Assembly: GCA_017694935.1 (NCBI GenBank)
Contig: JADIME010000018.1
Span: 1 to 33,995, forward strand
DNA length: 33,995 nucleotides
Direction: 5' to 3'
Origin: Candidatus Merdivivens pullistercoris
GTDB lineage: Bacteria > Bacteroidota > Bacteroidia > Bacteroidales > UBA932
A program made the translations under genes and the position numbers. Below the pieces are notes generated by a model. The model did no database searches, was not told the origin of the DNA, and saw nothing but the letters and a program-made list of their open reading frames with translations. Every line of letters begins with the position of its first letter. Position 1 is the first letter of the stretch. Shown here in pieces: positions 228 through 33,995 of the stretch.

Positions 228-506
228 TTAGAATCCTACACCCGTATTGTCATCACCTAAATTACCGACTATTCCGGCAGATCCTGGCGAACCTATGTAT
301 CCACCTCCCATATTACAAGTAAGTTTATCATTAATGCTTGAACAACTCACATACTTGTATGGACAATAAGCGTCTCCATTATGAGACTGGCAATAATGCA
401 CAGAACCTTTGCTTGTACATATCAAATTGCCTCCAATGATGTTGGATTCCTCCATTTTACCCAACCTGCCTTTTTCAAGGACTTTGAATGATTTGTGTTC
501 TTCCAT
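228..506 (-). CDS. Orphan cysteine-rich peptide with double-glycine leader (RiPP/bacteriocin-like precursor)
   Basis: A 92-residue peptide. Residues 1-26 look like a GG leader: a charged, amphipathic stretch followed by GKMEESNIIGG, with the predicted cut after G26. This resembles the 'natural product precursor, GG-Bacteroidales' leaders that are exported and cleaved by C39-peptidase ABC transporters. The predicted 66-residue core carries five cysteines at C30, C39, C48, C55 and C64 (spacing 9, 9, 7, 9) and then a Gly-rich tail without cysteine (residues 67-92). The gene has its own promoter-like sequence (534-565) and terminator (164-216), so it appears monocistronic. No transporter, radical SAM enzyme, cyclodehydratase or immunity gene lies next to it in the window. 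I recognise the leader type but not the core, so the product could be a bacteriocin, a signal peptide or an unmodified disulfide peptide. Confidence 0.7.
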   Translation of the reverse strand: MEEHKSFKVLEKGRLGKMEESNIIGGNLICTSKGSVHYCQSHNGDAYCPYKYVSCSSINDKLTCNMGGGYIGSPGSAGIVGNLGDDNTGVGF

Positions 507-533: not shown

Positions 534-565
534 CAAAATTACTCTGGCTCACACAACTTGGTCAA
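534..565 (-). promoter_or_regulatory. Putative promoter of the GG-leader peptide gene
   Basis: On the minus strand TTG (565-563) lies 21 nt before TAATTTTG (541-534), matching the Bacteroidetes -33/-7 pattern. The expected start of transcription would leave a 5' leader of about 20 nt before the ATG at 506. Confidence 0.45.
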
Positions 566-4053: not shown

Positions 4054-4203
4054 AATTATTTTCTTTGTTACTATTTATTCAAAAAACATCAAGAAGCAGT
4101 TACCCTGCATTTCCGGGACTGCCTCCAAAAACAGCTTATCATACAGCTTCTAAAAAAAGGAATCCCGTCTGACAACGGAATCCACTTTCTCCATTTATTT
4201 GGG

Positions 4204-4235
4204 CAAATATACGCAGAAGCCGAGAGAAATGCAAA
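4204..4235 (-). promoter_or_regulatory. Promoter of greA with the conserved CTCTCGGCTTCT spacer
   Basis: On the minus strand TTTG (4235-4232), 20 nt, TATATTTG (4211-4204). The spacer again contains CTCTCGGCTTCT, matching the cvpA and cmk promoters. It is the only strong promoter match seen upstream of greA. Confidence 0.75.
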
Positions 4236-4283
4236 TGAATTTGCATTTGCATGTTTGCATGTTTCGTCAGGAGGAGCCGGGAG

Positions 4284-4445
4284 GCCTCGGACTCACGGAT
4301 ACGACGGGCGGAACATGTGATGCAAGCCGTCAGGCTTGCATTGCCGAGGCGTGAACCGTATTTCCGGCGAAGCCGAATATCGCAGAAGCCGGAAACGGCA
4401 CGGCCTGCATCGCAAGGAAGGGACGGGTGCCCGGTTTGTACCGGG
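4284..4445. other. Hairpin-rich non-coding stretch upstream of greA
   Basis: GCCTCGG (4284-4290) pairs with CCGAGGC (4344-4350) and encloses a perfect 9-bp hairpin, ATGCAAGCC-GTCA-GGCTTGCAT (4320-4341). Next come TTTCCGGC/GCCGGAAA (4361-4368 with 4388-4395) and CCCGG/CCGGG (4430-4434 with 4441-4445). The stems are consecutive and do not overlap, as in a structured RNA, but no promoter was identified and the strand is unknown. Open frames through it (4251-4631 and 4336-4680) read the same repeat in different frames and look non-coding. Confidence 0.45.
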
Positions 4446-4487
4446 GGAAAGTGCTATGGTTTCGCGGCAAATCGATTCACTTTCCCC
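4443..4487. repeat. 45-bp direct repeat, copy 1
   Basis: Identical over 45 bp to 4549-4593, 106 bp apart. Each copy ends in inverted arms, GGGGAAAGTG and CACTTTCCCC, that can form a 10-bp stem around a loop of about 24 nt. The loop is conserved along with the arms. Confidence 0.9.
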
Positions 4488-4548
4488 GGAAGAATGGGAG
4501 AGGGATGCAGGCAGAATGGCCGTAGAACCGAGAACGCGATTATACCAC

Positions 4549-4593
4549 GGGGGAAAGTGCTATGGTTTCGCGGCAAATCGATTCACTTTCCCC
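4549..4593. repeat. 45-bp direct repeat, copy 2
   Basis: Second perfect copy of 4443-4487, including arms and loop. The copies lie in different reading frames relative to each other (106 is not a multiple of 3), which argues against conservation as protein. Confidence 0.9.
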
Positions 4594-4604
4594 CAAGAAT
4601 ACAA

Positions 4605-4845
4605 CATTGCATTGGCAGATGCTTTTTATGAAAATTCCTGGAGCGGTCACAAATCGTTTGATTTATGCAAAACCTTGTAAATCAACACATCCCGGGGGCA
4701 TGAGTTAAGTCTGCCTGCTCCAGCAGGCCTGTTATTACATCGTTGCTGGAGCAACTGAAAATTGTCAATATTTTACAAACTACACATTATCACCAAGTTA
4801 CAACACCGTGAATTAAGTCGGAGTGCTCCAGCAAATTCTGTTTTA
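4605..4845 (+). repeat. About 240-bp dispersed repeat with TGCTCCAGCA hairpins, copy 1
   Basis: Closely similar to the reverse complement of 28378-28618, from a GCATTGGCA start through to a GTGCTCCAGCAAATTCTG end. TGCTCCAGCA (4716-4725) and TGCTGGAGCA (4744-4753) form a perfect 10-bp stem around 18 nt. Further GCTGGAGC/GCTCCAGC words occur near 4639 and 4829. No substantial reading frame is preserved between the copies. Confidence 0.8.
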
Positions 4846-28345: not shown

Positions 28346-28377
28346 AACGGCGTGCCCCCCAAATGTTGGGAAAAAAA

Positions 28378-28618
28378 CAGAATTTGCCGGAGCACCCGGG
28401 CTTAATTTGCCGCACTATAACTTAATGATAATGTGCAAGTTGTAAAATATTGACAATTTTCAGTTGCTCCGGCAGCGATGTAAGAACAGGCCTGCTGGAG
28501 CAGGCCGACTTAACCCACAACTTCGTAATACATTAATTTACAGAACCTTGTACAAATCAAACAATTTGCGGCTGCTCCAGCAATTTTCATAAATAGCTCC
28601 TTCATTGCCAATGCAAAT
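28378..28618 (-). repeat. About 240-bp dispersed repeat with TGCTCCAGCA hairpins, copy 2
   Basis: Inverted partner of 4605-4845. The main stem keeps pairing: TGCTCCGGCA on one side faces TGCTGGAGCA, where the single change gives a G-U type pair on the plus-strand RNA. It lies immediately upstream of the cmk promoters. Confidence 0.8.
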
Positions 28619-28621
28619 TCA

Positions 28622-28653
28622 TTTGCATTGCTCTCGGCTTCTGACTATATTTG
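28622..28653 (+). promoter_or_regulatory. Distal cmk promoter with the conserved spacer
   Basis: TTTG (28622-28625), 20 nt, TATATTTG (28646-28653). The spacer has CTCTCGGCTTCT and also matches cvpA in the flanking CATTG. Confidence 0.7.
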
Positions 28654-28707
28654 CCCTGTCAGGCAGAAATACTGTTGCGCCTCGGAAAAGGAAATTGAAC
28701 AAGTTCA

Positions 28708-30493: not shown

Positions 30494-30592
30494 ATGGAAT
30501 GTAATGTTCATAACTTGGCCAGTGTCAAGATATCACGGATGCTGGCACAGTTCGGTAAGAACGATTTCGAAAAACACAGCCTCTGCCTATAG
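30494..30592 (+). CDS. Possible 32-residue leader peptide upstream of the C10 protease
   Basis: A short frame beginning about 20 nt after the predicted transcription start, MECNVHNLASVKISRMLAQF..., ending EKHSLCL with TAG. The stop codon falls inside the first leader hairpin (30580-30599), the arrangement expected of a regulatory upstream frame. It has no recognised homolog and no clear ribosome-binding site. In the second duplicated block only its last few codons are present. It could be chance. Confidence 0.3.
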   Translation: MECNVHNLASVKISRMLAQFGKNDFEKHSLCL

Positions 30593-30838
30593 GCAGGGGT
30601 CTCCGCAGAATGCTTCCGTCGTCGCGGGGAAGCGAATACCGAAATCAGTTATTAACGACAAAAATATAGTTTATGAACCCCAAAAAAAGAGCTCACATGT
30701 GGACAGTTGCGGTTCTGCAAATGTCCATGGCAATTATATTTTTCCTATGTTCATGCGACAGGTATGAACGTTTGGATTTGTCTCCTCCGGAAATGAAACA
30801 GTATCCGACCGAGATAACATTGGAGGAAGCGGAAAAGA
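30569..30838 (+). repeat. About 270-bp duplicated block (protease leader and signal peptide), copy 1
   Basis: Covers the hairpin leader, the protease start codon, the lipoprotein signal peptide and the first ~55 codons. It is nearly identical to 32723-32998 apart from a few substitutions in the signal peptide, small length differences and the 4-nt hairpin-loop insertion. Confidence 0.92.
30580..30633 (+). promoter_or_regulatory. Two-hairpin structured leader of the protease gene
   Basis: First hairpin: CCTCTGCC (30580-30587), TATA loop, GGCAGGGG (30592-30599), 8 bp with one wobble. Second: GCTTCC (30612-30617) with GGAAGC (30628-30633). Both recur in the duplicated block at about 32732-32790, where the first hairpin loop has four extra bases while its stem is kept. 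No T-tract follows, so control of translation or RNA stability is more likely than simple termination (inference). Confidence 0.5.
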
Positions 30839-32022
30839 TGCTGTTGGAGATGATGTCGGAGTTCGACTCCAGCCCGACGAAGTCCGGAGGCAGCCTTTCG
30901 CGGAAGATATCAGGCGGTTACAGTGTCGGAGAACCGATAAACGTGACCAAGGACGGTGAAGTTTTGCCTTATTTTCATATATTCAATTTCGAAGACGAAT
31001 CCGGTTTCGCAATAATGTCCGGTGACACCCGTGTCACTCCATTGCTGGCTTATGCATTGGAAGGAAATATTAATTATGGCGATACGATAGACAACCCAGG
31101 TTTGGCATTGTATATGTCAAGATTGTCTTCGTATTTCAACGATGTGATAACAATAGATACAATTAGTGGAAGGATAGACCGTGACAGTATAATCTTTATG
31201 GGGGCGTGGGAGTGGGAATTTTCTGAAATGATAAATGGCCCGTGCCCTGTTAAGTGGGGTCAGTGGTATCCATACAATTATTATTGTCCCCAGTATGGCG
31301 AACGCCATATGGCTCCTACGTGTTGCGTAGCGACTGCGGTCGCCCAGCTTATGGCTTGTTATCGTTATCCTGAAAATTATAAAGGACATGGGTTTGATTG
31401 GGACTTGATGATATCCGAGAGCAATGCGATGGATAATCCAGGCACTGGCGAAGGTGTTTCCCCTGTCATTCCAATATATCCTGACATAGAAATAATTCCT
31501 CCGGATTCATTGCCTCTGCCAGTGCCAAGCGAGGGACTATTACAAGTAGCCCGTTTGATGGAACAGTTAGGCTTGCCGGAAAACCTAGGTGTCTATTATA
31601 CAGACTCTTCTAGCAGTGCATATACGCCATTTGTCCCTAAGACTTTGATAAATTTTGATTTTTTAGATGGTGGTATATTTACGGATCTTTCCGATTTTGA
31701 AGATGACAAAGAAATGTTCAAAATGAATCTTATCAATGAGCTCAAGAAGGGATATTATTGTATTATCAGGGCTAACGAAACCCGCGCAAATGGATCCGGT
31801 CATTGCTGGCTGTTGCATGGTTTACTCACCATGACGAATATTGCTGACCATCCCGGTAAAAAAGAATACTATATGTTGTGCAATTTCGGCTGGGACGGTA
31901 ATTCTGACGGATACTATCTGATGGATGTTTTCAATACGACAAAAGGTCCCGTCATTCCTTATTCGGACGGTATAGGCAATTATAGTGAAGGTATTAAATA
32001 TATTATAGGAATAAGAGTATAA
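30673..32022 (+). CDS. C10-family (streptopain-like) cysteine protease, predicted lipoprotein
   Basis: A 449-residue exported protease. The signal peptide has lipobox LCSC with Cys28 as the likely lipid-anchored residue. Residues about 45-180 form the Spi/propeptide type inhibitory prodomain (PYFHIFNFEDESGFAIMSGD). The catalytic domain begins near VKWGQWYPYNYYCPQ. The nucleophile is most likely C218 in TCCVATAVAQLM (C217 precedes it, where family members usually have Gly or Ala). The catalytic histidine is H377 in GSGHCWLLHG, and N404-F-G-W407 matches the usual NWGW. Related enzymes include SpeB of Streptococcus and the Bfp proteases of Bacteroides fragilis. Encoded 3 nt before a lipoprotein gene. 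Promoter 30436-30466. Confidence 0.9.
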   Translation: MNPKKRAHMWTVAVLQMSMAIIFFLCSCDRYERLDLSPPEMKQYPTEITLEEAEKMLLEMMSEFDSSPTKSGGSLSRKISGGYSVGEPINVTKDGEVLPYFHIFNFEDESGFAIMSGDTRVTPLLAYALEGNINYGDTIDNPGLALYMSRLSSYFNDVITIDTISGRIDRDSIIFMGAWEWEFSEMINGPCPVKWGQWYPYNYYCPQYGERHMAPTCCVATAVAQLMACYRYPENYKGHGFDWDLMISESNAMDNPGTGEGVSPVIPIYPDIEIIPPDSLPLPVPSEGLLQVARLMEQLGLPENLGVYYTDSSSSAYTPFVPKTLINFDFLDGGIFTDLSDFEDDKEMFKMNLINELKKGYYCIIRANETRANGSGHCWLLHGLLTMTNIADHPGKKEYYMLCNFGWDGNSDGYYLMDVFNTTKGPVIPYSDGIGNYSEGIKYIIGIRV

Positions 32023-32722: not shown

Positions 32723-32998
32723 GAAAAACACGGCCTCTGTCTATCTATAGGCAGGGGTCTCCGCAGAATGCTTCCGTCGTCGCGGGGAAGCGAATACCGA
32801 AATCAGTTATTAACGACAAAAATATAGTTTATGAACCCAAAAAAAAGAGCTCACATGTGGACAGTTGCGGTTCTGCAAATGTCCGTGATAATCATATTTT
32901 TCCTATGCTCATGCGACAGGTATGAACGTTTGGATTTGTCTCCTCCGGAAATGAAACAGTATCCGACCGAGATAACATTGGAGGAAGCGGAAAAGATA
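32723..32998 (+). repeat. About 270-bp duplicated block, copy 2
   Basis: Begins 5 nt after the stop codon of the first lipoprotein and ends where the protease frame breaks (GAAAAGAT then ATAAG). It carries the same two hairpins, the start codon context and the signal peptide. The high identity suggests recent duplication or gene conversion. Confidence 0.92.
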
Positions 32999-33803: not shown

Positions 33804-33889
33804 CACATAAGACATGAGCAGCTTGGCGGACAAAGGTGCGACAGACTTTGCCCGCCATATTTTTTGAGTAAGTTTGCGGATACATTTAG

Positions 33890-33995
33890 AAGCTGTTTAA
33901 AATTTTTTCAAAAGTTCTTTGTGGCATCATTCCGGCACGTTTTCGCCATTTTTATCGTAAAATAGCGCTGCTATTCTCCTCAAAAAACGACAAAA
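33890..33995 (+). repeat. AGAAGC-headed repeat, right window copy
   Basis: Inverted partner of 21-129, beginning TTTAGAAGCTGTTTAAAA 85 nt after the last lipoprotein gene and running off the window end. The interval 33804-33889 shows no gene. Preceded by TTTGCGGAT, a trace of the GATTATCCGC arm found at 26585 and 28058. Confidence 0.8.

Follow-up and report, generated by a model that had tools for sequence, protein, structure and literature searches.

Several described systems resemble the locus considered here. In the GG-Bacteroidales system (TIGR04149/TIGR04148/TIGR04150), a GG-leader precursor is accompanied by a radical SAM maturase. Cys-rich substrates and radical SAM/SPASM maturases are found in ranthipeptides (CteA/CteB, PapA/PapB) and in the Clo7bot (TIGR04334), TIGR04463, and CefB systems. 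A radical SAM plus PCAT architecture is known from RiPP clusters of Bacteroidales (PMC10352776). In prochlorosins (ProcM/ProcA, SyncM/SyncA), each precursor joins a conserved GG leader to a variable core, and the precursor genes lie remote from the single modifying enzyme (PMC10783134). DUF4932 is a putative metalloprotease of a LanB-type cluster (PMC5410138); in the open-licence literature searched, it was named only in that report.

The window, that is, the whole stretch of 33,995 bases that was analysed, is an entire contig of a 2.12-Mb Bacteroidales genome (G000) that is 98% complete and shares its GTDB family with the bins G029 and G237. To judge from sequence, a gene near one end (Table 1) encodes a precursor of an unnamed family of GG-leader, Cys-rich RiPPs that are probably matured by radical SAM/SPASM enzymes. 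The peptide is most likely matured in trans, by enzymes encoded on another contig, C53, of the same genome.

Table 1. Features of the precursor locus in the window.
Feature	Position	Strand	Basis
Interspersed hairpin-forming repeat copy at contig edge	1..130		Genome repeat search and folding
Intrinsic-terminator-like hairpin with U tract, just 3′ of stop codon	163..221	-	RNA folding
Precursor peptide gene, 92 aa, stop codon counted in	228..506	-	ORF call; profile and homolog matches
Core, residues 27-92, with five Cys; contains CPYKYVSC motif and KLTCN; GGYIGSPGSAGI tail in common with G328	231..428	-	Sequence comparison
Leader, residues 1-26, MEEHKSFKVLEKGRLGKMEESNIIGG	429..506	-	12-precursor alignment
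Bacteroidota-type promoter match, TTG-N21-TAATTTTG	534..565	-	Pattern scan

The ORF begins with ATG, and NIIGG at residues 22-26 closes the leader, which bears out the IIGG ending given in the preliminary description. The cysteines lie at residues 30, 39, 48, 55, and 64. The even intervals described earlier (9-9-7-9) are exact for this peptide but are not conserved in homologs, where spacings such as 13-7-7-9, 10-7-7-8, and 19-7-9 occur. In the sequences compared, even spacing is no rule of the family.

The promoter-like and terminator-like sequences claimed earlier were both found. The promoter match, one of 11 of the Bacteroidota type on both strands of the 34-kb window, ends 27 nt 5′ of the ATG. 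Matches in an E. coli-type promoter scan were not in excess of shuffles. About 10 nt beyond the stop codon, a hairpin followed by UUUUUUU folds with −21.9 kcal/mol (z = −3.9), and none of 200 shuffles was equally stable. Owing to its long loop, this hairpin escaped a simple terminator scan. Apart from the repeat at the contig edge, the window has a further set of intergenic repeats in several copies (4202-4840, 28374-28656, and 705-745), with a common TTGCATTxCTCTCGGCTTCT stretch and embedded TAnnTTTG promoter matches.

Searches of Pfam and NCBIfam with the window peptide gave no model matches. The leader had been ascribed to known Bacteroidales natural-product precursors exported by C39 transporters. 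The precursor type agrees with this, as does the C39-ABC exporter that the genome encodes, but the leader did not match the GG-Bacteroidales model TIGR04149 (cut-off 25 bits), with zero NCBIfam matches at E up to 10. The leader fits the family of the C53 precursor. Since it lies outside TIGR04149, the precursor family is, on sequence comparison, a different one, without a name in the Pfam and NCBIfam libraries searched. A description of the family was not found in the open-licence literature, to which the search was limited.

A profile was built from cassette precursors with the window peptide excluded. The peptide scored 55.3 bits, compared with 11.2 bits for the best of 1000 shuffles; with the same profile, leader (20.4 bits) and core (27.6 bits) each scored above the best shuffle. 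By these scores, the window peptide is a real member of the family, beyond chance. The family was first detected via genomes of relatives and then via a radical SAM profile; when the window peptide alone was used in a pattern scan, named genomes gave no match. Among 100 relatives, G029 carried two homologs (E about 1e-6). The closest homolog, in G328 (54% over 77 aa), has CPxKYxSCS…KLTCN…GGYxGxPGSAGI in common with the window peptide. It has four cysteines (19-7-9), and the second Cys of the window peptide is missing, which counts against the explanation preferred here.

The leader consensus of a 12-precursor alignment was MKKFKIIEEGRLSKxEMSxIxGG, with invariant columns at F7, E11, G25, G26, C30, C48, Y52, C55, and C64 (window numbering). 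About 24 precursors were mined beside the cassette radical SAM, nearly all with a leader of the form F-x-[IV]-x-E-x-[GS]-R and a Cys-rich core. At E<1e-5 (best match), the precursor profile found 5 of 300 genomes of the same taxonomic family, all five with the radical SAM. When sampling was widened across the order, none of 392 other genomes had the precursor, the own genome being the sole match among 393. Chance was taken to explain the weak matches in G109 and G307, both without the radical SAM. G010 has a GG peptide next to a radical SAM ORF broken by a stop, a locus that has apparently decayed. A close paralog of the window peptide was absent from its own genome, where the weak matches were C62 (broken by a stop) and C77 (residues 36-80 only, 29% identity).

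The homologs lie beside a conserved cassette of one or more DUF4932 zincins, a radical SAM/SPASM maturase, a C39-peptidase ABC exporter, and HlyD. In G029, the two homologs are directly upstream of DUF4932, radical SAM/SPASM, DUF4932, C39-ABC, and HlyD. The G328 homolog lies between C39-ABC and DUF4932-radical SAM-HlyD, within a complete cassette, and two homologs in G177 adjoin the same type of radical SAM. With the G029 radical SAM as bait, 4 of 250 sampled same-family genomes matched at E<1e-100. Radical SAM bait also recovered the cassette in named genomes, among them Alistipes, Dysgonomonas, and bins of Prevotella-like and soil Bacteroidetes, the named strains being Alistipes sp. CHKCI003, Alistipes sp. 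Marseille-P5061, and Dysgonomonas sp. 216. HExxH was present in 10 of the 11 DUF4932 proteins examined. Homologous precursors beside a radical SAM/SPASM maturase, the mark of radical-SAM-modified RiPPs, were found in G029, G177, G328, and the named loci.

The preliminary description had offered two routes, service in trans or a stand-alone exported disulfide peptide. In the second, a C39 exporter would suffice, and the Cys-rich core would perhaps be oxidised by a VKOR/thioredoxin-like protein on C54. This C39-like/thioredoxin-like protein adjoins another GG peptide, and one resembling it is found next to the cassette of G237. The stand-alone route is nevertheless very improbable: the homologs consistently accompany a radical SAM maturase, and the number of cysteines varies from 4 to 10 in the family and is often odd (five in the window peptide), so simple disulfide pairing does not fit.

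Service in trans, the other branch, is supported by the C39-ABC exporter and radical SAM maturases of the same genome, both of which had been proposed as a check. The cassette genes on C53 encode a GG precursor of 91 aa, a DUF4932 protein containing HETCH, the radical SAM enzyme, a second DUF4932 protein lacking HExxH, C39-ABC, and HlyD. The genome has one radical SAM of the cassette type and one full C39-ABC, both on C53. Both CX3CX2C and SPASM cysteines are present in the radical SAM. Among solved structures, 5wgg (E 1.9e-21), the thioether-forming enzyme CteB, is closest to it in sequence; the curated families nearest to it comprise maturases that act on Cys-rich peptides. The double-glycine ending of the leader and the C39-ABC on C53 are the features of a C39/PCAT substrate. 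Three absences had been named beforehand as counting against the reading of the gene as a precursor: a leader-model match, homologs, and a C39 transporter. Only the leader-model match was absent; homologs and transporter were both found.

Other loci of this genome were also noted. C53 (L011:1-486) begins, by reading of the sequence, in an apparent insertion-sequence end, after which comes what is left of a DUF4932 C-terminus; this suggests that the upstream part of the cassette was interrupted. C71 (L013:5525-8423) carries a complete system of TIGR04148 radical SAM, TIGR04150-like pseudo-rSAM (245.6 bits, slightly below the cut-off of 250), and TIGR04149 precursor (36.7 bits, above the 25-bit cut-off). 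C54 (L012:4741-7550) and L041:8503-14526 carry a module in which a C39-like/thioredoxin-like fusion, apparently lacking the catalytic N-terminal portion of C39, is grouped with a GG peptide, a Porph_ging/GLPGLI protein, and a large protein of outer-membrane type. A module resembling that of C54 adjoins the radical SAM cassette in G237.

Downstream, 227 bp separate the stop codon of the precursor gene from the end of the contig. A 130-bp repeat, interspersed, partly palindromic, hairpin-forming, and with a AAACAGCTTCT end, occupies this edge and also 33888-33995. It has 59 matches in the 2.1-Mb genome, about 40 of them near full length and many at contig ends, and appears MITE- or REP-like. To the right of the precursor are the housekeeping genes cvpA and tsaB. 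The earlier statement that no maturation or export gene lies beside the precursor held on the right side, where no maturase was found; on the left, the contig ends in the repeat. Because the window is a whole contig starting in a repeat, absence of neighbours is assessable on one side only, and the "orphan" status of the gene is uncertain. Elsewhere in the window, a C10-family peptidase with an Inhibitor_I69 prodomain is followed by two lipoprotein-like ORFs (30673-32022), and a 275-bp direct repeat (95.6% identical, 30569-30839 and 32723-32997) lies upstream of the units.

The remoteness of the gene from the cassette may be an artefact of the contig break. A cassette acting in cis, either a second one or a rearranged form of that on C53, could lie just beyond the contig end if the assembly broke at the repeat. 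The position of the stop codon so close to a repeat with dozens of copies is consistent with this, as are the cassettes of G029 and G328, which lie downstream of the precursor, and the start of C53. A cis arrangement is still unlikely, since the terminator closes the precursor gene ahead of the repeat, a single cassette-type radical SAM and a single full C39-ABC were found in a nearly complete genome, and the sequence in which C53 starts is not that found at the end of C92. Service in trans by C53 is favoured by the terminator and by the single copies of radical SAM and C39-ABC.

Two genomes of the same genus have neither the precursor nor the radical SAM, which indicates that the precursor gene is accessory. 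In both, cvpA and tsaB stay together, and a different gene precedes cvpA (MFS-like by reading of the ORF, without a model match). A functional link to cvpA ("Colicin V production") was rejected, as cvpA has a divergent orientation and remains next to tsaB in the peptide-less genomes. An accessory gene could be a duplicated or horizontally acquired precursor that has no matching enzyme left and is drifting, and the window core is closer to the G328 core than to the C53 precursor. A drifting relic is quite doubtful, since the ORF is intact and leader, core motifs, promoter match, and terminator are all kept.

With the gene separated from its machinery, maturation in trans by the C53 enzymes is the most likely route. 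It is counted against this route that C53 already encodes a precursor in its cassette, to which the window peptide bears only a weak similarity (25% over 72 aa). As the window core is nearer the G328 type, specificity for the C53 enzyme is putative. The C53 radical SAM would recognise the window leader and form linkages at the cysteines of the core. With CteB as the closest enzyme of solved structure, these would probably be ranthipeptide-like thioethers. The exporter would then cleave after Gly26 with its C39 domain, and a 66-residue core from Asn27 would be exported via an HlyD-type type I channel. The zincin-like DUF4932 proteins may trim the peptide or serve self-protection. The final peptide might be antibacterial or act in signalling.

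More tentatively, stray precursors may be matured in trans by a cassette with a different precursor, giving combinatorial products per genome, as with prochlorosins, in an unnamed RiPP family of Bacteroidota. The putative features of such a family are a leader of F-x-[IV]-x-E-x-[GS]-R…GG, a core of C…CPxxYxSC…C…GYxGxPG, and paired DUF4932 zincins, radical SAM/SPASM, and PCAT. An unexplained small Cys-rich ORF is now tied to a compact biosynthetic cassette without a name in the curated libraries searched. If processing in trans is true, cluster-centred genome mining would overlook such precursors in Bacteroidota, and the tolerance of the enzyme would be usable. The cassette family may be accessible through the three named strains.

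Compared with known systems, the locus is like the GG-Bacteroidales system in its GG leader, radical SAM maturase, and Bacteroidales host, and the genome holds a copy of that system on C71. The window leader, however, has no TIGR04149 match, the radical SAM of the cassette does not belong to TIGR04148, and the C53-type cassette has two DUF4932 in place of the pseudo-rSAM, plus C39-ABC and HlyD. By profile, the cassette radical SAM/SPASM is closest to the maturases of ranthipeptides and related Cys-rich peptides, with CteB the closest among solved structures. All NCBIfam equivalog matches were far under the curated cut-offs, and the GG leader with C39 export sets the cassette apart. The likeness to ranthipeptides is a sequence relation to CteB/PapB alone, and the linkage chemistry is putative. 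The radical SAM plus PCAT architecture of Bacteroidales RiPP clusters (PMC10352776) is shared by the C53-type cassette; DUF4932 beside the window precursor family is the difference. Prochlorosins are a precedent for remote precursors such as the window gene, but they differ in LanM lanthionine chemistry, Nif11-type leaders, cyanobacterial hosts, and dozens of precursors, compared with one remote precursor here.
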